This document shows, in pieces, positions 18,521-31,137 of a stretch of 64,000 nucleotides of DNA. The notes beneath the pieces are model-generated. The model was not told the origin of the DNA. It worked only from the letters and a program-made list of their open reading frames with translations, and ran no database searches. Within the stretch, counting starts at the first letter, position 1, and every line of letters begins with the position of its first letter. This DNA comes from Methanobrevibacter millerae. GTDB lineage: Archaea > Methanobacteriota > Methanobacteria > Methanobacteriales > Methanobacteriaceae. The DNA lies in assembly GCF_001477655.1 (NCBI RefSeq), contig NZ_CP011266.1, forward strand, positions 790,001 through 854,000. Reading direction: 5' to 3'. The position numbers and the translations under genes were made by a program.

Positions 18521-19486
18521 CTAATTTAATTTTTTATTATTTTCTTTTATTTTTTCTAAAATCTCTAGTTTATATGGCTTTATATTAATGGAATTTTCTT
18601 CATTTTCTGATAATCTATCAAAGCAATTGAATGATTCCTCTAAATTATTTATTCTTCTTAAAACTAATCCTTTATTAAATAATGCATATTTATAATTTTT
18701 CTTCAATTTTAGGCATTTATTGAAGTAATCTATAGATTCATCGTATTTGCTAAATAAAAATAATGTACATGCTTTGTAATTTAAAGTGCTGACGTCATTT
18801 TGATTAACGTTTAACAGATTATTCATTAATTTCAATGCTTTTTTTGGATTTTCATTAATCGCTAATTCTTTCAATGCTTGAATTTTTAATTTCTCTTTCA
18901 TTGTTTTTTTAGATGTGGGTATTTCAAATATAAATTCATTAAATATAATATTATCTATTTCTTTAATCAATGCACGAACTGAATTTTTGCAACGTTCATC
19001 TTCAACTATTGCTTTTTCAAAAAATGTTAAAGCATCCCAGATTTTATCTTCATTCTTATAATCCAAACCCTTTTTAATACATCTATTAGCTTTTTTAGAA
19101 TAATTATTATGCAAAGTATTAATATCTATAAGTTCAAAAATTTCATTTTTAAAAATAGATACAATTTTATTCATTTCACAGTCCATTCCAATGGCTTTAT
19201 TAAAATAATAAATTGCGTTCTGATAATCCTTTTTATTTTTTAATATTATTCCTTTATTGATTAATGCAGAGGTATTTTCACTAATGGTCAGTGATTTATC
19301 AAAACACTTTTCGGCATCATCAAAATTATTTAATTTTATCAATGCTGATCCTTTACCGTTCAATGCATCGATATTATTAGGTTCATTTTCAAGTATTTCA
19401 TTAAAAATTTTTAATGCTTCTTCACTATTGTTTTGTAATAATAGTATGGCTTTATCAATTTTTTTTTGAATACTTTTGTTAAACAT
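18521..19486 (-). CDS. Tetratricopeptide repeat protein
   Basis: The 321-aa protein is built of TPR units. Clear ones include EALKIFNEILENEPNNIDA, DAEKCFDKSLTISE, NAIYYFNKAIGMD and, near the C-terminus, ESIDYFNKCLKLKKNYKYAL and ESFNCFDRLSENE. Such proteins are scaffolds for protein contacts. There is no signal peptide or membrane segment. It lies just upstream of the FHA-kinase cassette but on the opposite strand, sharing a 333-base AT-rich promoter region with it; a functional link is possible but unproven. Confidence 0.85.
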   Translation of the reverse strand: MFNKSIQKKIDKAILLLQNNSEEALKIFNEILENEPNNIDALNGKGSALIKLNNFDDAEKCFDKSLTISENTSALINKGIILKNKKDYQNAIYYFNKAIGMDCEMNKIVSIFKNEIFELIDINTLHNNYSKKANRCIKKGLDYKNEDKIWDALTFFEKAIVEDERCKNSVRALIKEIDNIIFNEFIFEIPTSKKTMKEKLKIQALKELAINENPKKALKLMNNLLNVNQNDVSTLNYKACTLFLFSKYDESIDYFNKCLKLKKNYKYALFNKGLVLRRINNLEESFNCFDRLSENEENSINIKPYKLEILEKIKENNKKLN

Positions 19487-19819: not shown

Positions 19820-20623
19820 ATGGAAAATTTAGAAGCCGTTAAATCTGCGATATTGGGGTTGGATGATGAAAATAGCACATCTAGTAAAATAGCTGCTGTT
19901 AATAATAAAGTTCGATTGTCAATATTGGAAATTTTAAGAAATTTTTATAATTGTGGTCATTCTGAAAATAATGTCTTTAAAAAAAATCCACTTTATTCAC
20001 GTGAAATCAATTCAATACTTTTGAATAATTATGGTATTAATATCACCCCACAGATGTTGGGCCAACATATAAAACAGCTTATCGAAGCGGATTTAATTGA
20101 AGAAGTCTCTATTAAAAAAGAGGTTCCTAATAAAATTGGTCGAAGAAAGGTGAAAGGATATGTTTTAAAAAATGATGCCTTTGATAATATTTTTTTGGAT
20201 ATAAATTTCCTGTCTGATGAGCTTTTATCATTCTTTGGATTATATAAAATTAATCAAAAATTTAATGATGGTGAACACTGTGTTTTAACAATATTTAATG
20301 GTATGGATAAAGGAAAAACATTTAAAATACATAAAAATGAAACAATTTTAGTTGGACGAAAAGGTGATTTTAAAGAATGTGATTTGGCTTCTTTTACAAT
20401 TCTTTTGGATAATAGTTATAGGAGTGTCTCCAATGTATCCAAACCACATTTAAAACTCTTTTTTAACCATGATTCATGGTGTATTGTGGATAATAATAGT
20501 TCAAATGGAACTTTTCTCAATGATAAACTGGTTAAGAAGGGTATTGTTACAAAATTAGAAAAAAATTCCTTTTTAAAATTATCTAAAGGTGATGGTGGAG
20601 CTGTTATTTATTGTTCCTATTAA
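19820..20623 (+). CDS. Winged-helix protein with C-terminal FHA domain (copy 1)
   Basis: The 267-aa protein has an ArsR-like winged helix at about residues 24-118 (SKIAAVNNKVRLSILEILR; TPQMLGQHIKQLIEADLIEE) and a FHA domain at about 153-262. The FHA phosphothreonine-binding residues are all present: GR (179-180), SKPH (207-210) and NG (229-230). It should therefore read a phosphorylated partner and bind DNA. The start at ATG 19820 follows GGGG. A paralogue of the same length follows, then a Ser/Thr kinase gene, the obvious source of the phosphothreonine. No membrane segment. Confidence 0.88.
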   Translation: MENLEAVKSAILGLDDENSTSSKIAAVNNKVRLSILEILRNFYNCGHSENNVFKKNPLYSREINSILLNNYGINITPQMLGQHIKQLIEADLIEEVSIKKEVPNKIGRRKVKGYVLKNDAFDNIFLDINFLSDELLSFFGLYKINQKFNDGEHCVLTIFNGMDKGKTFKIHKNETILVGRKGDFKECDLASFTILLDNSYRSVSNVSKPHLKLFFNHDSWCIVDNNSSNGTFLNDKLVKKGIVTKLEKNSFLKLSKGDGGAVIYCSY

Positions 20624-20720
20624 TTAAATGTTCATTAACAAAAAAACAGAAAAACTATGTATTTAGATTAATATTAGATTTAACATATCGTGTATATTTT
20701 TTAATGGATGGAGGTTTTAC

Positions 20721-21524
20721 ATGAGTAAATTGGAAAATATTGAAACAGAACTTGTTGATTTAAATGATTCAAAAATAATATCTACTAAATTGGCTGCAGT
20801 AAATAATAATGTTAGATTTTCTATTTTAGAAATTTTACGTGATTTTCAGGTTACATTTAATGAAAAAAATACTAATTTTAAAAAAGAGCCACTTTACTAT
20901 CGTGAAATAAATAGTTATCTTGCAGATAATTATAATATCAATATTACTCCTCAAATGTTGGGTCAACATTTAAAACAGTTGTTAAAAGCAGATTTGATAG
21001 AAGAAGTTAATGTTAAAAAAGAAATTCCTAATAAAGTTGGTCTTAGAACAGTTAAAGCATATAAACTAAAAGAGGATGCATTTGAAGATTTATTTTTGGA
21101 TATAAATTTTTTATCCGATGAATTGTTATACTTTTTTGATTTGTATTGTGTTAATCAAAAGTTTAAAGATGATGAATGTTGTGTTTTAACAATATTTAAT
21201 GGTGTCGATAAAGGTAAATCATTTAAAGTTAATAATGATGAAACTGTTTTAATTGGAAGAAAAGACAACTTTGAAAATAGTGATTTTTCTTCTTTGGTGG
21301 TTCTTTTGGATAATGATTATGTCAGTGTTTCTAGCATTTCAAAGCCTCATTTAAAAATATTTTATGAAGATGATTTTTGGTATGTTTTGGATGAGGCAAG
21401 TACAAATGGAACATTTGTTTCAGGAAAAAAGATTCCGCAAGGTATAGCTACAAAATTAAAAAATAATTCCTTTTTAAAATTATCTCGGGGTAATGGTGGA
21501 GTGGTTATTTATTGTTCCTTTTAA
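20721..21524 (+). CDS. Winged-helix protein with C-terminal FHA domain (copy 2)
   Basis: This is a tandem paralogue of the preceding gene, also exactly 267 aa, with the same layout: winged helix about 24-118 and FHA about 153-262 with GR (179-180), SKPH (207-210) and NG (229-230). Identity is highest around AAVNN.VR.SILEILR, NITPQMLGQH and CVLTIFNG. Differences cluster in the linker before the wing, so DNA targets may differ. GGAGG lies about 10 bases before ATG. The kinase gene starts 29 bases after its stop, so the two are co-transcribed. Confidence 0.88.
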   Translation: MSKLENIETELVDLNDSKIISTKLAAVNNNVRFSILEILRDFQVTFNEKNTNFKKEPLYYREINSYLADNYNINITPQMLGQHLKQLLKADLIEEVNVKKEIPNKVGLRTVKAYKLKEDAFEDLFLDINFLSDELLYFFDLYCVNQKFKDDECCVLTIFNGVDKGKSFKVNNDETVLIGRKDNFENSDFSSLVVLLDNDYVSVSSISKPHLKIFYEDDFWYVLDEASTNGTFVSGKKIPQGIATKLKNNSFLKLSRGNGGVVIYCSF

Positions 21525-21553
21525 TTTTGCACATTATTTATTCGGTGAGTTAA

Positions 21554-24500
21554 TTGGATTTTAATGAATCAAAACTAATGGTAGAAGAATTTTTTAATGG
21601 ACAGTATGAAGTCAAAAAATTCTTGGGAGAAGGATCTTTTGCAGAAGTTTACTTGGTCAAACATGTTTTTTTAGATGACTTACGTGCAATGAAAGTAATT
21701 AAACAGCCATTAAATGAAAATTTTGATAATAAAAATGTTTTTAATGAAGTAATGCTTGCAACTCAGTTAAGGCATCAAAATATTATTAGTATTTATGATG
21801 CAGGAATAATTTCTCAAGATTCTGGAATAAATAAGGCTTATTTTGTAATGGAATATGTTCCTGGGGGAGATTTACAACAGTATCTTAATTCTTTCATAAA
21901 TTCAAATCTTTCATTGTCAGTTCATCGATGCTTAAATTTAATGAAACAAATTCTTCAAGGATTAAATGTATTGCATTCATCAAATCCAGTTATTGTTCAT
22001 AGGGATTTAAAATTAAATAATATTTTATTGAGTTATAACGAATGTGGAGATATTGTAATTAAAATCTCCGATTTGGGTTTTGCAAAAGAAGTAAGTACTG
22101 AAATTTCAGATATTGATGTTGCAGGTACACGGCCATATATGGCTCCAGAGTCATTTAGAAAAGTTATTTCAACAGCAACTGATATTTATGCAGTAGGTGT
22201 TATTTTTTATCAGTTATTAACTAATAATTATCCTTATGATATTGAGAAATTTAGTTTGGAAGAAATTATTCGGGGAAAGCCTTGGAATGTTTCTTTAAAA
22301 GCTCCGAGTGACTATAATGATAATGTTCCTAAGAAATTAGATGAAATTGTCTTTAAATCTTTAGATTCAAATCCTGAAAATAGGTATCAAAATGCATCAG
22401 AATTTTTAGATGATATTGAATTAATCATGACTGAATTTTCAGATGATAAAATCCCAATCATTAAAGAGGATTATGTTGATGAAAATTCTGAATATATTAT
22501 TAATGAAAATCTTAAAAAGGCTTTTAAGCTTGCAAAATGTGAAAATAGATTAAATGATGCTATTGAAATATTGGAAAAGGAAATAATTGGAAATTATGAT
22601 GTTCGTCAGTGTTATGGTGAAACTTTACGGATGTGGAAATCTAAGCGTCCTGACCTTAAATTAATTTCAAAGGCTTTTAGTATAAACTTGAGGGGCGATA
22701 ATTATGTGTTATCGTCTAATCTTTTAAAAGAAGCTATTGCATATAATCCTGGGATGAAGAATAAATATGGTCATTATCTTGAATTGTGGAGAATATTCAT
22801 TGATTTGTCAAAATATGGTAATTTAATAAAAGCAGTAATGTCTCTTGAGGAGCTGATGGATTCAAATAATGAGATTAATGAAGGTTATATTAATATTATT
22901 GATATATTGAAAACATTTTCTATAGATGTAATGGTCAATGAATCGATTCGTTTAGTGAATTTAAACAATCTTGATGATGGAAGTAAATTGATGGAGTTTG
23001 CGATTGTTTGTGATTCAAGGTTAAAATCAAAATATGCTTATAAACTTTCATTATGGAAACAGAATATGAATTTGCATTTCAAGACAATAAATGATTTTAA
23101 TAATTGCAATACGGTTGATTATGCAATTGATTTAGGTACTGTTGATTCTACAGTAGCATATTGTAATAATGGTAATCCAATAATTATAAAAAATTATAAA
23201 ACAGGTAATGAAATTACTCCATCGGCTATTTTAATTGATGAGGAGAATAATCTTAAAGTAGGAGAAATTGCTAGAACTGAAATAATAAATAATTCAAAAA
23301 ATGCCGTATCTGAATTTAAAGGCAATATGGGGTTTTCCATTCCATTTAAATTTGAAAAATCATCAAGGGTTTTGTTTCCAGAAGAGCTATCTGCAGAAGT
23401 TTTAAAAGAATTAAGAGTATCTGTTTTTAATCAATGTCGTGTAAATCTTGAAGATGTTGTTATTTGTTGTCCTGCAAATTCGAATCCTATGAAAACAAAA
23501 GCGATTAATGATGCTATAGACCTTGCGGGTTTTAAATCACATAATCTTATTTTGGAGCCAATTGCCGTAGCTTTTGCATATAATTTAAAATCCTCCCATA
23601 AAGATAATGGAATATGGATGATTTATGATTTAGGTGGTGGTACATTTAATGTATCTCTTATTGAAGACAACGGGGATGAAATTGAAAAACTTGCAACTAC
23701 TGGTTTAGATAATTTGGGTGGAAAAACATTAGATTGGAAAGTTGTAGAAGATATTTTCATACCAAAAATTAGTATGGATTTAAATTTAAATGATTTTAAT
23801 TTGAATAATTCCAAATATTCTGAAATATTTTCAAAACTTAAGACTGCTGCAGAAAAATCTAAAAAAGATTTGTCTATTTCAACAAAATCCAATATATGTA
23901 TAAATAATCTTTTTGATAATTATGATTTCATATTTACTTTAACTAGGGATGACTTTAAGGAAGTAATTTGTCCTTTGATTAAAGTTACATTAGATTTATG
24001 TAAAAACTTATTAAATGAAAAGGATTTTTCAAGCAAGGACATTGATAAAATTATTTTGGTGGGGGGATCTTGTTTAAGTCCTGTTGTTAAGGATTTGATT
24101 AAAGAAGAATTTGATATTCCACTTGAATATAGTATTGACCCATTAACAGTTGTTGCAAAAGGTGCAGCTATTTATGCAGGCACTATAGAGAAAACTATAA
24201 TTGAAACTACTGTAAATGAATTTTCATTGATATTGAACAAAGAAAAAGATATTATTTCGGGCAGAGCATTCGCTTCAGATAATAAATTCTCATTTTTAGG
24301 ATTTGATATAGAATTTTTAAATCAAAAAACGGCGGAATCTTTAAAAATACCTTTAAACATTGATGGGGAGTTTATGGTAAAATTAAAAGAGGGGGATTAT
24401 TCAATAAATATTTATGATTCTGGTGATATCGTAAATATTGATGAAAAATCACCTAATCAATTAATATCTGGTGAAATGTTAATTCCATATTTTAAACATA

Positions 24501-25090
24501 CTTTTAGCTTAAAATATAGTGAAATAACCTATAAGAAATTATTTAAGCAATATATTGAATTATTAAAACAGGTTAATTTTTTAAAAGAAAATGATTCATT
24601 TAATGAAAATGATATTTTGGAATATATTGAAAGGATGTTTGAAATAGCTCAAAAAGATAAAAGAGCGCTTAATCAAGTAGAAATTTATTTAAATTATATC
24701 AAGAAAACATCTTCGGATTTGTTAAATAATCTTAATTTTTCTAATCTTTTGGATAATGTCATTAATAAGATAAATATTGCTAAAAGAGATAGTTTATTTT
24801 ATGTTGATGATTTGAAAGATAAACTTAAATTGGCTGTTGATGATAAAGATATCAATATTTTAAATGATATTCATTATCAATTGATTGAAAGATATGTTTT
24901 GTTAAATAAAAACGATGTAATTAAGGAATGTTTTTTTAATTTAATTTATGATGGTATATACTCCCAATATCCTGATGAATTAATAAAAAGGGCTATTGCT
25001 GCTATTAATGATTCAGATTATAATTTATTGAGTGTTTTGGTCAATGAGTTATATGAACTTGATGGTAGAAATTCTCTGTTGGATAAATAA
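21554..25090 (+). CDS. Ser/Thr protein kinase fused to an Hsp70-type ATPase domain
   Basis: The 1178-aa protein starts at TTG with GGTGAG 6 bases upstream. Residues ~15-295 are a Hanks-type kinase: GEGSFAEV (25-32), K47, HRDLKLNN (149-156, D151), DLG in place of DFG (173-175), GTRPYMAPE (191-199); it looks active. Residues ~310-510 are helical, with three diverged copies of a KYxxxLxLW motif. Residues ~520-870 are an actin/Hsp70 ATPase: IDLGTVDSTVAY (525-536), YDLGGGTFNVS (691-701) and ILVGGSCLSPVV further on. A beta-rich and a helical tail follow (~880-1178). No membrane segment. FHA genes lie upstream and HD-RyR genes downstream on the same strand. Confidence 0.88.
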   Translation: MDFNESKLMVEEFFNGQYEVKKFLGEGSFAEVYLVKHVFLDDLRAMKVIKQPLNENFDNKNVFNEVMLATQLRHQNIISIYDAGIISQDSGINKAYFVMEYVPGGDLQQYLNSFINSNLSLSVHRCLNLMKQILQGLNVLHSSNPVIVHRDLKLNNILLSYNECGDIVIKISDLGFAKEVSTEISDIDVAGTRPYMAPESFRKVISTATDIYAVGVIFYQLLTNNYPYDIEKFSLEEIIRGKPWNVSLKAPSDYNDNVPKKLDEIVFKSLDSNPENRYQNASEFLDDIELIMTEFSDDKIPIIKEDYVDENSEYIINENLKKAFKLAKCENRLNDAIEILEKEIIGNYDVRQCYGETLRMWKSKRPDLKLISKAFSINLRGDNYVLSSNLLKEAIAYNPGMKNKYGHYLELWRIFIDLSKYGNLIKAVMSLEELMDSNNEINEGYINIIDILKTFSIDVMVNESIRLVNLNNLDDGSKLMEFAIVCDSRLKSKYAYKLSLWKQNMNLHFKTINDFNNCNTVDYAIDLGTVDSTVAYCNNGNPIIIKNYKTGNEITPSAILIDEENNLKVGEIARTEIINNSKNAVSEFKGNMGFSIPFKFEKSSRVLFPEELSAEVLKELRVSVFNQCRVNLEDVVICCPANSNPMKTKAINDAIDLAGFKSHNLILEPIAVAFAYNLKSSHKDNGIWMIYDLGGGTFNVSLIEDNGDEIEKLATTGLDNLGGKTLDWKVVEDIFIPKISMDLNLNDFNLNNSKYSEIFSKLKTAAEKSKKDLSISTKSNICINNLFDNYDFIFTLTRDDFKEVICPLIKVTLDLCKNLLNEKDFSSKDIDKIILVGGSCLSPVVKDLIKEEFDIPLEYSIDPLTVVAKGAAIYAGTIEKTIIETTVNEFSLILNKEKDIISGRAFASDNKFSFLGFDIEFLNQKTAESLKIPLNIDGEFMVKLKEGDYSINIYDSGDIVNIDEKSPNQLISGEMLIPYFKHTFSLKYSEITYKKLFKQYIELLKQVNFLKENDSFNENDILEYIERMFEIAQKDKRALNQVEIYLNYIKKTSSDLLNNLNFSNLLDNVINKINIAKRDSLFYVDDLKDKLKLAVDDKDINILNDIHYQLIERYVLLNKNDVIKECFFNLIYDGIYSQYPDELIKRAIAAINDSDYNLLSVLVNELYELDGRNSLLDK

Positions 25091-25137
25091 AAAACTTTAA
25101 TTGACTTATATGTTTTTAAATGGCATATATAGAATAT

Positions 25138-25275
25138 ATGATTATTATGACTAAAAAGGATACAAAATCTACAATAATATTAAACAACATTAAATCAGAT
25201 GATTTTTTAGATTTTAGTTCTTCGTATGATTTAAAACAGATAATTGAAGTATTAAGTAAAATAATGGATGATTGA
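25138..25275 (+). CDS. Possible small protein between the kinase and HD-RyR genes
   Basis: A 45-codon frame (or 42 from the second ATG at 25147) reads MIIMTKKDTKSTIILNN and ends in EVLSKIMDD. Its amino-acid mix (charged helix with DFLDF and DLKQII) looks protein-like, but there is no clear ribosome site; a TATA-like CATATATAG lies about 10 bases upstream. I do not recognise it. It fills most of a 308-base gap in an otherwise same-strand cassette. Confidence 0.35.
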   Translation: MIIMTKKDTKSTIILNNIKSDDFLDFSSSYDLKQIIEVLSKIMDD

Positions 25276-25398
25276 TATTGAATATTATGATAATCTTGGA
25301 ATTATGTAAATATATGATTTTTGAATGAAATAGTGATTTCGTTGCTTTTAGGTGATTTTATTCCAGATATTTAAAAGATTTAATAATTGGTGCTTAAA

Positions 25399-27639
25399 AT
25401 GGATGAGAAAAGTTTAAAAAGTTATGTAAATGATTTTTTTGATGAATTGATTTTATATGATGATTATAATAATAATCATTATTATAAAGATTTGTTAAAG
25501 GCAGGAATCGATGTATTTTTGGATAATGAAAATTCATATAATGCATATGAAATTTATAGGACATTTTTCATGATATATCAAATTACTGCAGAAGATAAAT
25601 CCACTAAAAGCTCAGACAAAATTTCGATTACTAAAGAGCCAAATACTCTTCTTAATTTAGTAAGAATAATGAAAAAATATGAAGAAAATACTGGTGATTT
25701 GGTTGAAAAGCAAAGAGATCATTTTATTCACTCGATTAATGTTTTTCTTTTAGGTTTGGCCATTTATTCTCAAAATAAAAATTATAGAAATTACTTTAAA
25801 CAGTATATTTTGAGAAGTCCATATGAAAAATATTATAAAATAAATGATGAATTTTCTCATGAAGAATTTTTATATCGTTGGGGTATAGCTTCTCTTTTCC
25901 ATGATATAGGTTATCCTGTTGAAATTATTGGAAAACAATTAAGTAAATTTATTAATGGGGGTATTAAGTCTATTTCAAGCAGTTATGGTGTAGATACCGC
26001 AATTGATTTTAAAGATTTCAATGAGTTTAATACTATTATAAAAATAGACCCTGATTTTTCAGATAACTATACTGATGTTTTTCCAAAATCCAAGTTTTTA
26101 AACTTATTTAAGCCTACTGACATCATGGCTCATAAAATTGGGACAGATTTTACGGAAATTGATGTAAATGATGTGGCAAAACATCTTGATTCTTTTGTTG
26201 ATATTATGGGGGAAAACGGATTTTTGGATCATGGGTTTTTCTCATCTATTCTGGTTTTAAACTCATATGGTTATTTAATTCAAAAATATGCTAAAAACCA
26301 TGATTTTTTCTTTTATCCGATTGTAGATAGTGCAACAGCTATTTTATTGCATAATTACTATAGAAATGTGTTGCAGAAAAAACCTTTTAATTTAAAACAG
26401 TTGCATCCTAGTAATTCTCCATTGGCATTCTTATTAATTTTATGTGATGAGCTTCAGGAGTGGAACAGGCAACCATTTGGGGTTATGGATAAAAAGAGAA
26501 GTCATGTTAATGATTTGATTTTAACAATTGATGATAGGGGAATGGATGTGGAATATGTTGTTAGGAGTGGTTCTATTGGACTTGGATTTTCTGAAGATAA
26601 GTTGGAGTTGCTTAAAAATGTTTTATCAATTTCCAGCATTTTTGAATTAGGTTTAAGGATAATTACAGATATTAAACAAGATGATGTTTTAAGAGAAATT
26701 GTTTACTCTGAAGCTGAAGCTCCAGATATTTTGCTTAGAAATGTTGAAAAATTAGCTATTAATATTCATCAGCACTATTTGAACTCTATGGAGGAAGAAT
26801 ATAAACAAAGGGATGCTGATAATAGGCTTGATGATGAATTTCTTAGAAAATATGGAGATTTGTCTTCTTATGATGAATTGTCTCCACAACTTAAAATAGC
26901 TAATATACGGCAGGCAAGGTCAATTCCACTTAAATTAAATATTATTGGATGTGAGCTTGCAGACTTGTCTGATGAAAGACTCGCTATTACTGAGTTTTTA
27001 GAAGATGAAGTGCTTGATTTGGCTATATTTGAACATAATGAATGGTGTAAGGAGAAAATACGTACCGGATGGGTTTATGGTGAGGTGAGGGATGATTCTA
27101 AATTGATTCATGATTGTTTGGTTCCTTGGGAGGATTTAACTCCTGAAATGCAGAAATTGGATATTGATCCAGTTAGGAATATTCCTTCTTTAGTTGATTC
27201 ATTAGGACTTAAGATTGTACGATCAAAACAGAGATTGCTTACCTTTGAAATGCATAAATTTTATACTCAAAAAGATGATTTTGATGAATTGCCTGATTAT
27301 ATAAAATATTCTAACTATAAACAGACTGACTTTTTAGTTAAAATATTGGCTGAACTTGGTTATGAAATGGTTGATACAGCATCTAAAGAAAATGCCATTG
27401 TTTCATTTGATGAAGATGAAATTAATTATTTGGCTAAAAGAGAACATGCTGCTTGGTATAAGCTTAAAATTAATTTAGGTTGGAAATATGGTTCTATTAA
27501 AGATGAAAATGAAAAAACTAATCCTAATTTAATTCAATGGGATGAGTTGGATTATAATATTCAAGAACTGAATAAGAAGACATTTAGGGATTTGCCTGTT
27601 TTATGCCAAAATGTTGGTTTAAAAATTGTTAAAAACTAA
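25399..27639 (+). CDS. HD-domain phosphohydrolase-like protein with two C-terminal RyR domains (copy 1)
   Basis: The 746-aa protein starts at ATG 25399 after GGTG. Its N-terminal half is HD-like: RDHFIHS (106-112), LFHDIGYP (167-174), then DHGFFSS, LLHNYYRN and LLILCDELQEW supply the further His and Asp needed for a metal site, so catalysis on a nucleotide or phosphoester is plausible. Two RyR-type repeats follow at about 541-610 (EHNEWCKEKIRTGWVYG, LVPWEDL, VRNIP) and 678-746 (REHAAWYKLKINLGWKYG, LPVL), each preceded by a SNY/NIRQA helix. RyR domains are thought to bind small ligands. No membrane segment. The ligand and substrate are unknown. Confidence 0.8.
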   Translation: MDEKSLKSYVNDFFDELILYDDYNNNHYYKDLLKAGIDVFLDNENSYNAYEIYRTFFMIYQITAEDKSTKSSDKISITKEPNTLLNLVRIMKKYEENTGDLVEKQRDHFIHSINVFLLGLAIYSQNKNYRNYFKQYILRSPYEKYYKINDEFSHEEFLYRWGIASLFHDIGYPVEIIGKQLSKFINGGIKSISSSYGVDTAIDFKDFNEFNTIIKIDPDFSDNYTDVFPKSKFLNLFKPTDIMAHKIGTDFTEIDVNDVAKHLDSFVDIMGENGFLDHGFFSSILVLNSYGYLIQKYAKNHDFFFYPIVDSATAILLHNYYRNVLQKKPFNLKQLHPSNSPLAFLLILCDELQEWNRQPFGVMDKKRSHVNDLILTIDDRGMDVEYVVRSGSIGLGFSEDKLELLKNVLSISSIFELGLRIITDIKQDDVLREIVYSEAEAPDILLRNVEKLAINIHQHYLNSMEEEYKQRDADNRLDDEFLRKYGDLSSYDELSPQLKIANIRQARSIPLKLNIIGCELADLSDERLAITEFLEDEVLDLAIFEHNEWCKEKIRTGWVYGEVRDDSKLIHDCLVPWEDLTPEMQKLDIDPVRNIPSLVDSLGLKIVRSKQRLLTFEMHKFYTQKDDFDELPDYIKYSNYKQTDFLVKILAELGYEMVDTASKENAIVSFDEDEINYLAKREHAAWYKLKINLGWKYGSIKDENEKTNPNLIQWDELDYNIQELNKKTFRDLPVLCQNVGLKIVKN

Positions 27640-27739
27640 TTTTTTTAATTTATTTTTTATTTTTTATATACTTTTCAATTTTTAATGTAAATTTTATTTA
27701 ATATAATTTGTAAATAGTTTATATAATTGAGGTGGGATT

Positions 27740-30067
27740 ATGAGTATCAAAACAACAAATAATATCAAAGATTATGTTGATGATTTTTTTGATAATTTAG
27801 AATTATATGATGATTATAAAAATAATCATGATTATAAAGGTATTTTAAAATCAAGTATTGATGTATTTCTTAATTATGAAAATGATTATACTGCTAAAGA
27901 GGTTTACCATAATTTTTTCATGATATATCAAATCACTCCTGAAAGGAAATCTAAGGAAAAATATAATGATAATAAACTTGTAAGTGAACCAAATACTCTT
28001 TTGGATTTGGTTGAAACTATGGAAAAATATGAAAAAAATACTGGGATGTTAATTGAAAGGCAAAGGGATCATTTTATTCACTCGGTTAATGTTTTTATTT
28101 TAGGTTTGGCTATTTATTCTCAAAATGAAAATTATCGGGAAGTATTTAAAGAGTATATTGAAACAAGCAAATATGGAAAATATTATAAAACTGAGAGTGG
28201 AGAATTATCTCATGAAGAGTTCTTATATCGTTGGGGTATAGCTTCTTTGTTCCATGATATAGGTTATCCTTTTGAAATTATTGGAAAGCAGTTAAATAAA
28301 TTCATTAATGATGGTGTTAAATCAATTTCTAATGCTTATGATGTAAATGTTACTATTGATTTTGAAGATTTTGATGAATTCAATTCTATTGTAAAATTAT
28401 CTCCTTATTCTTTTGCAGATGATTATCGTGAAGATTATCCTGAATCAAAAGTTTTGGATTTATTCAAGCCTACTGAAATAATGGCTCATAAAATTTCTAG
28501 AGATTTTGATTTTGATAAGGAAAAGTTTAAACTATTATTGTCTCACTTAAACAATTTTGTTACTTATATGAAAAAGAATAATTTCATTGACCATGGATTT
28601 TATTCTTCAATTCTGGTTTTAAACTCTTATGGTAGTTTAATCCAAAAATATGGTAGAAATAATAGTTATTTTTTCTATCCTATTGTGGATAGTGCAACAG
28701 CTATTTTATTGCATAACTATTACAATAAAACATTACAGGAGGAACCTTTTTGTGAAAAAGAATTATCCTGTGAAAAAAATCCTATTGCATATCTATTGAT
28801 TTTATGCGATGAGCTTCAGGAGTGGAACAGGCAACCATTTGGACTTATAGATTTAAAGAAATCTCATGTCAATGATTTGATTATTGAAATTGATGATGAG
28901 ATGATAAAGGTTGAATATAAATTAAATAATGGTTCGATGGGTCTTGGATTTTCAAAAGATAAACAGGAATTCATTGAAAGTGTTTTGGATATGGGTGAAG
29001 ACTCAGTATTTGAAAGAGGAATTTCTATCAAAACTACTGTTAATGATGATGTTGAATTGGCAGTTATGAGGGGCATTGACTTTTCCGATATTGAAACTCC
29101 TGATATGTTGATTAGAAATATTGAGTTGTTAGCAAAGAAAATTAATGAGCAATATAATGTCTCACTCAAAGAGGAATATGAAAGAAAATCTAAGACAAAT
29201 GATGTCGATGAAAATTTACAGAACAGGTATGATGCTTTGTGTGAGTTTAATGAGTTGTCTTCTGATTTAAAATTGTCTAACATCAGACAGGCAAAATCAA
29301 TTCCTATGAAGTTAAATATGATTGGTTGTGAGATTGTTAATAAATCTGATGAACGAGAACCTATTTTAGAATTTTCAGATAAAGAATTAACGGATTTGGC
29401 AATTTTTGAACATAATGAATGGGTAAAAGAAAAAGAGAATACTGGTTGGATTTTGGGTGATAAAAAAGATGAAGAAATGCGCACCACTCCATTTTTAGTT
29501 CCTTGGGAGGATCTTTCTGAGGATGATCAAAAATATGATAAGGATGCTATAAGAAACATCCCTGCTCTTTTAGATTCCATTGGTTTAAAAGCCGTGAATA
29601 GTAAGATTAAAATTCTCACATTTAAAATGCATGAGGAATATCTTAAAAGGCATAACAACAATATTGGCGAAAATATTGATTCAGCAGAATTATTTGATGA
29701 ATTGGATGATTATATTAAATTTTCAAATTATAAACAAGCTAAATTCAATATAAAACTTTTAAATGAACGAGGTTATGATTTGGTTCCTAGAACTGGTGAA
29801 GATTGGGATGATGAAGTTAAAAGTTTCAGTAAACGTGATTTGGAACATTTTGCAAAAAGAGAACACAAAGCATGGTTTAAACTTAAATCCGATTTGGGAT
29901 GGAAATATGGGCCTAAAAGAGATGATGAAAATAAGATCAATCCTAATTTGCGCCCTTGGAAAAAATTGGATAAGAAAGTTCAAAATGATAACATGAAAAC
30001 TTTTGAAGTTCTCCCAAGATTATGTGCTGATCCGGAGGTGAATCTTAAAATAGTAAAAAGTGAGTGA
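27740..30067 (+). CDS. HD-domain phosphohydrolase-like protein with two C-terminal RyR domains (copy 2)
   Basis: This 775-aa paralogue of the preceding gene keeps every HD residue seen there: RQRDHFIHSVN, LFHDIGYPFE, DHGFYSS, LLHNYY and LLILCDELQEWNRQPFG. Its two RyR units read EHNEWVKEKENTGWILG with LVPWEDL, and REHKAWFKLKSDLGWKYG with LRPWKKL. Near-identical blocks (for example around RWGIASLFHDIGYP) alternate with diverged ones, so the copies are related by tandem duplication but have specialised. AGGTGGG precedes the ATG. It is the last intact gene of the cassette; a decayed tnpB follows after about 330 bases. Confidence 0.8.
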   Translation: MSIKTTNNIKDYVDDFFDNLELYDDYKNNHDYKGILKSSIDVFLNYENDYTAKEVYHNFFMIYQITPERKSKEKYNDNKLVSEPNTLLDLVETMEKYEKNTGMLIERQRDHFIHSVNVFILGLAIYSQNENYREVFKEYIETSKYGKYYKTESGELSHEEFLYRWGIASLFHDIGYPFEIIGKQLNKFINDGVKSISNAYDVNVTIDFEDFDEFNSIVKLSPYSFADDYREDYPESKVLDLFKPTEIMAHKISRDFDFDKEKFKLLLSHLNNFVTYMKKNNFIDHGFYSSILVLNSYGSLIQKYGRNNSYFFYPIVDSATAILLHNYYNKTLQEEPFCEKELSCEKNPIAYLLILCDELQEWNRQPFGLIDLKKSHVNDLIIEIDDEMIKVEYKLNNGSMGLGFSKDKQEFIESVLDMGEDSVFERGISIKTTVNDDVELAVMRGIDFSDIETPDMLIRNIELLAKKINEQYNVSLKEEYERKSKTNDVDENLQNRYDALCEFNELSSDLKLSNIRQAKSIPMKLNMIGCEIVNKSDEREPILEFSDKELTDLAIFEHNEWVKEKENTGWILGDKKDEEMRTTPFLVPWEDLSEDDQKYDKDAIRNIPALLDSIGLKAVNSKIKILTFKMHEEYLKRHNNNIGENIDSAELFDELDDYIKFSNYKQAKFNIKLLNERGYDLVPRTGEDWDDEVKSFSKRDLEHFAKREHKAWFKLKSDLGWKYGPKRDDENKINPNLRPWKKLDKKVQNDNMKTFEVLPRLCADPEVNLKIVKSE

Positions 30068-30393: not shown

Positions 30394-31137
30394 ACGGTTA
30401 ATGTTGTAAATAAAGGTTTAAAAGTGGAAATTCTTCCTGATAAAAATATGGCACAGGTATTAAATCAAAATATTGGTAATTAACTATTTATAGGGAATAA
30501 TATGCTTTCAAGATACAATGATTTATATAAGTTGTTTTCTTGTCATGATTGTCCTTTAAATCTCAATTTAAATGCTATTTTAAAGATGTTAAAACAGGAG
30601 CACACATTTTTATGTGAAGGTGAGTTTACAAGTCAACAACACGTAAAAAAATATCGTAAATTATTAAAATCTTCAAAAATCAACAAATATAACCATTAAA
30701 AAAGAAAACGGAAAATACTATGCCATAATAAAACATTATTACAAGTGGTAATGAATTAAAACACACTGGAAAAAAATATGGGTATTGATTTAGGAATAAA
30801 AAATCTGGCAACACTATCCAACGGCCAAGAAATGGCCAATCTCGACCTAAAACACAAAAATCAGATGATAAAAAAATACCAAAAAAACTATCCAGACAAA
30901 AATACATGGGAAAAACTATCAAAAAACACTAAAAAAATACCATGAATAGCTAAACAGAAAAAACAACAAAACACAAAATGCATGACATCAACGCCACAAA
31001 AAACATCTTAAAAGAAGGATTAAGAATACAAAAAAACCATACAACTGTGTGAAAAAAATATTTTTCACTGAACCAGTAAGTCAATGGGAGATAGCTTGGT
31101 AAATCTTAATACACAAGTATTAACAGTCCAAGAATAA
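30394..31137 (+). pseudogene. tnpB: Decayed IS200/IS605-family tnpB (RNA-guided nuclease-like transposon protein)
   Basis: Fragments of TnpB appear in order: VNVVNKGLKVEILPDKN from ACG 30394 (a likely mutated ATG), an in-frame TAA at 30481, LSRYNDLYKLF from 30502, then a jump from TSQQ to KKYRKLLKSSKIN that implies an internal deletion of some 60 codons. After frameshifts come KKENGKYYA, MGIDLGIKNLATLSNGQ (RuvC-I, from 30778), DINATKNILKEGLRI and SLVNLNTQ-type end ending at 31135-31137. The remaining 744 bases compare with about 1.2 kb for intact copies. The tnpA partner is absent. It lies directly after the FHA-kinase-RyR cassette. Confidence 0.85.

Follow-up and report, generated by a model that had tools for sequence, protein, structure and literature searches.

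A kinase-Hsp70, HTH-FHA and HD-RyR gene cassette of Methanobrevibacter, possibly a nucleotide-gated stress or antiviral system

Phage proteins with a ryanodine receptor (RyR) domain are among the described counterparts of a five-gene cassette at positions 19820-30067 of a 64,000-nucleotide stretch of Methanobrevibacter millerae DNA (the window; bases 790001-854000 of a 2.54-Mb single-contig chromosome). RyDEP, in which H75 and D117 are catalytic and W78 and H100 contact the ligand, is a glycosidase of 2'/3' cyclic ADP-ribose (2'/3'cADPR), an immune signal that TIR proteins make from NAD; six of eight tested phage RyR homologues bound this nucleotide, homologues other than RyDEP did not cleave it when tested, and the phage fold matches Repeat12 of the animal ryanodine receptor (PMC13232231, bioRxiv, May 2026). 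Other parts of the cassette recall NTP-dependent conflict systems, which carry HSP70/GrpE and kinase-phosphatase themes around other cores and whose description mentions neither RtcB nor ryanodine (PMC7159879), and Clover, in which the HD-type dNTPase CloA is under nucleotide-signal control (PMC12265719).

The original prediction for this locus had named two helix-turn-helix (HTH)-FHA proteins, one Ser/Thr kinase-Hsp70 fusion and two HD proteins with double RyR domains, and had proposed that they form a single system. All five open reading frames (ORFs) proved intact and lie on the + strand, and Pfam matches to FHA, to Pkinase plus HSP70 and to RyR bear out the corresponding domains. The linkage underlying the overall interpretation also held, but the usual cassette is larger, taking in RtcB, SIS, phosphoesterase and TPR genes, and consists of two separable modules. 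We interpret the locus as a chromosomal accessory cassette that may link a phospho-signalling switch under chaperone control to a hydrolase gated by a nucleotide, as part of a stress or antiviral response, a reading to which we assign a probability of roughly 0.4.

Conserved linkage and the phospho-signalling module

To assess linkage, we searched 150 related genomes and computed co-occurrence on the 67 genomes of the genus. HD-RyR genes were present in 29 of the 150 genomes, HTH-FHA genes in 27 and the kinase-Hsp70 fusion in 21, all of one genus. Every fusion-bearing genome also carried HTH-FHA (21/21, Fisher p=1e-13) and nearly every one carried HD-RyR (20/21, p=3e-10), although these tests ignore shared ancestry and the p-values are upper estimates of strength. 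Kinase and HD-RyR genes are contiguous and in fixed order in 16 of the 21 fusion genomes; in four others HD-RyR lies on another draft contig, and in G059, where it is absent, the kinase-Hsp70 gene (L102) is an intact 1166-aa ORF. The parts thus co-occur, mostly side by side, rather than lying at unlinked loci, and the proposal of a single system stands.

The typical order runs from adhesin-like genes through RtcB, SIS, HTH-FHA, kinase-Hsp70 and calcineurin-like phosphoesterase to one to four HD-RyR genes, with RtcB, SIS and the phosphoesterase being frequent rather than constant members. In these relatives an HTH-FHA homologue directly precedes the kinase-Hsp70 gene. Neither SIS nor a phosphoesterase gene lies at the cassette of the window strain, the only part of its genome examined for these two, and blastx found no phosphoesterase-gene remnant in its 25.1-25.4 kb gap. 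Tandem duplication of both flanking families, as originally described, holds in the window but is not general: HD-RyR duplication is common in relatives, whereas the tandem FHA pair was seen in the window strain only, among the relatives compared.

The fusion gene (21554..25090, + strand, TTG start) encodes a single 1178-aa chain in which a helical region separates a kinase domain (Pkinase, residues 18-279, E=1e-49) from an Hsp70 domain (HSP70, residues 525-881, E=4e-65). Kinase residues K47, H149-R150-D151 and D173 are invariant in 13 sequences, and E65, the D(L/F)G and APE motifs and the Hsp70 phosphate loops are invariant or nearly so in the homologue alignment. With the VAIK Lys, HRD Asp and DFG Asp all in place, this half is a predicted active Ser/Thr (Hanks-type) kinase; in PADLOC (2023 release) it scores strongly against the MAD6 / PD-T4-6 defence kinases (E=3e-60 and 7e-54). 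The Hsp70 half conserves its ATPase residues (D526-L-G, K589, E668 and D692LGGGT). A structural model of moderate confidence (predicted local distance difference test, pLDDT, 69) gives the Hsp70 half a nucleotide-binding domain followed by a substrate-binding-like domain; the C-terminal third of the chain forms strands and then helices, and Foldseek aligns it with full-length DnaK over 500-660 columns (E~5e-25). Genera of Methanobacteriaceae other than Methanobrevibacter encode kinase and Hsp70 as separate genes, a split pair that points to cooperation between the fused halves.

Upstream of the fusion lie HTH-FHA protein 1 (19820..20623, + strand; FHA E=7e-10) and HTH-FHA protein 2 (20721..21524, + strand; FHA E=3e-9), the latter gene ending about 30 bp before the kinase-Hsp70 gene. 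Both proteins have 267 aa and share 61% identity over their full length when the first is read from ATG 19820, which is probably its start. The phosphothreonine-binding core of FHA domains (GR...S..H...NG) is intact in both (GRK, SKPH, SNGTF or TNGTF), making them predicted phosphothreonine readers, and each begins with a winged helix weakly matching HTH_20 (E=0.008-0.02). The originally proposed division of labour among kinase, FHA and Hsp70 gains credibility from the intact catalytic and phosphothreonine-binding residues. On these grounds a phospho-relay is plausible, its sequence of steps being a proposal.

The HD-RyR proteins and their relatives

The two downstream genes encode HD-(RyR)2 protein 1 (25387..27639, + strand, 750 aa; likely starting at ATG 25399) and protein 2 (27740..30067, + strand, 775 aa), which are 56% identical. 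Each contains two stretches of RyR Repeat12 (PF02026), with scores of 96.7 and 82.8 against a gathering cut-off of 27.4 (E=9e-28 and 2e-23), and the AlphaFold model of protein 1 (pLDDT 83.6) had human RyR3 Repeat12 as its best Foldseek fold (E=7e-7). These regions are Repeat12 by both domain and fold.

To compare the repeats with RyDEP, we located positions by spacing (H at 0, W at +3, H or T at +25, D at +42), RyDEP itself being unaligned. The first repeat of protein 1 carries H550, W553, H575 and D592 at the spacing of RyDEP H75, W78, H100 and D117, thus retaining the His-Asp dyad, the Trp and the phosphate-binding His, while that of protein 2 has T at the third position. Across 39 HD-RyR proteins the first repeat keeps H in 39/39, W in 39/39 and D in 36/39, with H, T, N, S or Q at the H100 position. 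The second repeat keeps H (39/39) and W (38/39) but has Asn in place of Asp in 37/39, including both window proteins; single-repeat members mostly retain H, W and D. This pattern leads us to predict that repeat 1 binds and possibly cleaves a ligand and that repeat 2 only binds. Since phage homologues other than RyDEP failed to cleave when assayed, the Asp by itself is no proof of catalysis.

The HD assignment is less direct: neither Pfam nor a profile search of PDB sequences matched the HD domain of the window proteins, but an H...HD...D motif is fully or almost fully conserved across 80 homologues. Protein 1 has six conserved putative ligands (H115, H172, D173, H282, H322 and D354), of which H115, H172, D173 and D354 are kept in 33/33 of a broader relative set and in 46-47/47 of the main Methanobrevibacter set. 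Together with a weak Pfam HD match in one relative (L198, E=0.043) and an AlphaFold model in which the motif-bearing region is almost all-helical, this conservation supports predicted membership of the HD superfamily with its metal-ligand set; the Foldseek list of the HD-RyR model was dominated by RyR matches and gave no useful HD match. HD phosphodiesterases (HD-GYP) follow the pattern H...HD...H...HH...D, and the dinuclear diadenosine tetraphosphate (Ap4A) diphosphatase YqeK follows H...HD...H...H...D (PMC8177086). The position that follows H322 holds Asn, or in rare cases Ser or Lys, and not His; the motif departs here from the HD-GYP and HD phosphodiesterase pattern and, with a further two His separating HD from D, is YqeK-like. 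By analogy, a pyrophosphate-bearing nucleotide would be a reasonable first guess at the substrate, and only that.

Relatives sought in 84,980 species genomes occur in Clostridia, Chloroflexi, Actinomycetota, Omnitrophota and other archaea, and we examined their neighbourhoods at 37 loci outside the main Methanobrevibacter set (the HD ORF being hidden by the ORF filter in two). A TIR gene lies directly beside the HD gene in 16/37 loci by profile and within two genes in 18/37, or 19/37 with L193 added by Pfam. DUF4062-NTPases, several with WD40 or TPR repeats, neighbour HD-RyR at about seven loci (L170, L171, L174, L183 and L194, together with L166 and L168, which were so called from position and size only), and a SLATT protein does so at L198. 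Single-chain TIR-TIR-HD-RyR fusions exist within Methanobacteriaceae. In addition, three HD-only relatives without RyR adjoin a 141-145-aa ThsB-type TIR gene (L195:5904-6338, L197:2147-2581 and L200:2897-3319; Pfam E 2e-11 to 7e-14, PADLOC ThsB E=2e-14 for L195), a pairing that may represent an undescribed Thoeris type. No recognised ThsA stands beside the pair at these three loci. These neighbours and fusions place HD-RyR with TIR/ADP-ribose-nucleotide conflict systems.

In Chloroflexota, TrkA-type channel-like proteins with a C-terminal RyR adjoin HD-RyR (L172:6937-8775 and L167:6839-8458) and are candidate nucleotide-gated channels. Such fusions favour a sensor role for RyR, not solely that of an eraser, while the dyad kept in the first repeat would also permit a timer or eraser role. 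Both the RyDEP work (PMC13232231) and the bacterial TIR linkage lend weight to the earlier suggestion that RyR may sense a small ligand.

Three further observations concern these relatives. A bathyarchaeal HD-RyR protein (L202:541-2805) has a C-terminal extension that looks SLOG-like by eye and that Pfam did not confirm; a Ser/Thr kinase gene truncated at the end of its contig (L170:13142-13813) is found downstream of a bacterial HD-RyR gene, with a few genes between them; and on viral contigs the search for HD-RyR gave one weak HD-like match only.

Proposed mechanism and competing explanations

In the scheme that we propose, stress or infection would lead the Hsp70 half to bind a protein that is misfolded or foreign, and the attached kinase would be switched on and phosphorylate threonines on itself or a partner. 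The FHA domain would read the phosphothreonine, and the winged helix of the HTH-FHA protein would alter cassette transcription. HD-RyR would stay off until its tandem RyR bound an ADP-ribose-type nucleotide, e.g., a cyclic ADP-ribose isomer from a TIR or other NAD-using enzyme; the bound state would activate the metal-dependent HD domain, and nucleotide hydrolysis would slow growth or block the virus. Slow cleavage of the signal by the first repeat, whose His-Asp dyad is intact, might additionally provide a timer. These steps, and any role in defence, we infer from parts and residues. Beyond the genus, and again tentatively, with the odds somewhat against us, HD-RyR proteins may be a widespread, undescribed class of hydrolases, gated by ADP-ribose signals and working with TIR, ThsB and NTPase sensors of anaerobic bacteria and archaea in Thoeris-like defence, that in Methanobrevibacter came under a kinase-Hsp70-FHA switch dependent on protein damage.

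Several findings weigh against this scheme. No TIR adjoins the cassette, either in its five proteins or in the scanned flanking genes of the window, and among partner TIRs elsewhere the catalytic Glu of NAD-cleaving TIRs, judged by eye, is not uniformly kept. HD-RyR occurs without the kinase-Hsp70 fusion in 7/27 genomes of the genus, and G186, a single contig from another genus, carries consecutive genes for RtcB, SIS, HTH-FHA, kinase and Hsp70 with no HD-RyR there. The 28 HD-RyR host genomes outside Methanobrevibacter yielded no kinase-Hsp70 fusion, only Hsp70-like matches. Found apart in this way, the parts suggest that the cassette combines a chaperone/kinase/FHA module with an HD-RyR payload.

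Alternatively, HD-RyR could be an off-switch comparable to the ring nucleases of type III CRISPR systems, with the first repeat cleaving cyclic ADP-ribose and HD degrading the product to clear immune or stress signals. Retention of the dyad of a genuine 2'/3'cADPR glycosidase (PMC13232231), the two extra His of the HD motif, as in YqeK (PMC8177086), and the adjacency of HD-RyR to bacterial TIR genes all agree with this. Against it stand the failure of the other tested RyDEP homologues to cleave (PMC13232231), loss of the Asp from the second repeat, and the TrkA-type channels, on which RyR is more naturally a sensor; moreover, the HD-only relatives beside ThsB occupy the Thoeris effector place without any RyR. 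We therefore regard an off-switch as unlikely.

The cassette could instead be a proteostasis and RNA-repair stress regulon with no antiviral role, in which protein damage would be sensed by the Hsp70-kinase and the operon switched on by HTH-FHA, so that RtcB could rejoin broken RNA and HD-RyR could adjust nucleotide pools. Cassette-type RtcB was found in 10 genomes of the genus, and all 10 carry the kinase-Hsp70 fusion (10/10, p=7e-7); beyond these, G040 and G116 have diverged copies, and G186 and G198 have a relative next to split kinase and Hsp70 genes. A sister operon (L093:4239-18113, L101 and L103) likewise unites a ClpB-type AAA+ ATPase, a kinase, a CarboxypepD_reg protein, a small protein in a GrpE-like position, Hsp70, a phosphoesterase and TPR-M78; a TIR gene lies beside it in L103, L105 and L106. 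Yet the window strain lacks cassette-type RtcB, its sole RtcB being a distant one at 413 kb. The patchy presence of the cassette across related genomes, its variable sites and its AT-richness (27% G+C against 34-35% in the flanks) fit an accessory rather than a housekeeping function, and the TIR, ThsB and NTPase partners of HD-RyR elsewhere are typical of conflict systems. A stress regulon with no antiviral role is accordingly unlikely. Near an Hsp70/ClpB operon of another genus (L111:6419-18847), we also observed proteins resembling, by eye, the C-terminal part of RNA polymerase subunit A''.

That the site is merely a hotspot collecting unrelated accessory genes is very improbable: SIS and an ion-channel-like pair do flank it in genomes without the cassette, and the HD-RyR and kinase modules are each found alone, but gene order is fixed, co-occurrence is very strong, the cassette is conserved at two chromosomal settings (L112 and the window versus L110, L128 and L129) and with kinase and Hsp70 fused or split, and RtcB-SIS-HTH-FHA-kinase-Hsp70 is kept in another genus.

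As for neighbouring genes, a TPR-repeat protein encoded divergently at 18521..19486 (- strand; Pfam TPR E=2e-26) is a probable accessory member of the cassette. Many related genomes have a relative close to their HTH-FHA gene, and in G065 (L108), G058 (L131) and G068 (L223) it is on the same strand just upstream of that gene. Directly 3' of the cassette, a decayed TnpB-like transposon remnant (30480..31060, + strand) is context rather than a member; its frame is broken by many stops, GIDLGIKNLATLSNGQEMANLDLKHKNQM is readable on direct translation, and the family was assigned by eye. SIS, which occurs at the same site without the cassette too, is retained only as a frequent companion, and the channel-like gene pair (C3) was dropped on the same ground. 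That pair (L110:30-827 and 830-1606; G000:C1:1910808-1913282) encodes membrane proteins with a pore-loop-like TSNGYAVLG between helices and no Pfam match; it is common in the genus, often beside HD-RyR and also without it, and the tandem pair at L110 is possibly a new ion channel family.

Comparison with described systems

The gene set had been thought undescribed, and the literature that we searched contained no such system, no role for RyR domains of prokaryotic cells and no pairing of RyR with HD, kinase-Hsp70 or RtcB, many subscription journals lying outside its coverage. No complete PADLOC system (2023 database) was detected, and HD-RyR and RtcB had no convincing match there. To our knowledge, the defences of methanogens are poorly known, and the archaeal cassette would add to them a phospho-signalling and chaperone-controlled system.

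Thoeris offers a parallel in that the relatives of HD-RyR place a TIR beside an enzyme joined to a likely ADP-ribose-nucleotide-binding domain. The arrangement differs, however, in that HD would be the effector and RyR the sensor, instead of SIR2-SLOG or TM-Macro, and Pfam found no SIR2, SLOG or Macro, hence no ThsA equivalent, in the five cassette proteins. Adjacency to TIR is confined to distant HD or HD-RyR relatives; the window strain has no adjacent TIR, and control there is apparently exerted by the kinase-Hsp70-FHA module.

Unlike RyDEP and the phage RyR proteins, the RyR module of the cassette is cellular, comprises two repeats of which the second is degenerate, and is fused to HD. Its position beside TIR genes and in TIR fusions makes HD-RyR the likely host counterpart of the phage proteins and suggests a new effector type. 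With animal ryanodine receptors it shares two tandem Repeat12 units of matching fold, although HD-RyR has no channel, is fused to HD and is predicted to be soluble. If our reading is true, the tandem repeat of the animal receptor would be related to a prokaryotic immune nucleotide sensor.

MAD6 / PD-T4-6 resemble the kinase half alone and lack the Hsp70 fusion, FHA and HD-RyR. Clover likewise places an HD-superfamily enzyme under nucleotide-ligand control (CloA being likened by description, not sequence) but has no RyR, TIR, kinase or Hsp70. The NTP-dependent conflict systems (PMC7159879) resemble the cassette in using Hsp70, kinase, phosphoesterase, TPR and TIR parts together; in contrast, the cassette lacks DO-GTPase, GAP1, MoxR and vWA, with neither MoxR-vWA nor DO-GTPase/GAP1 among its genes or the scanned conserved neighbours, and has a kinase-Hsp70 fusion and an HTH-FHA reader of its own. 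The cassette and its HD-RyR proteins, for which we found no description, would fall among the nucleotide-signal and chaperone-regulated conflict systems.

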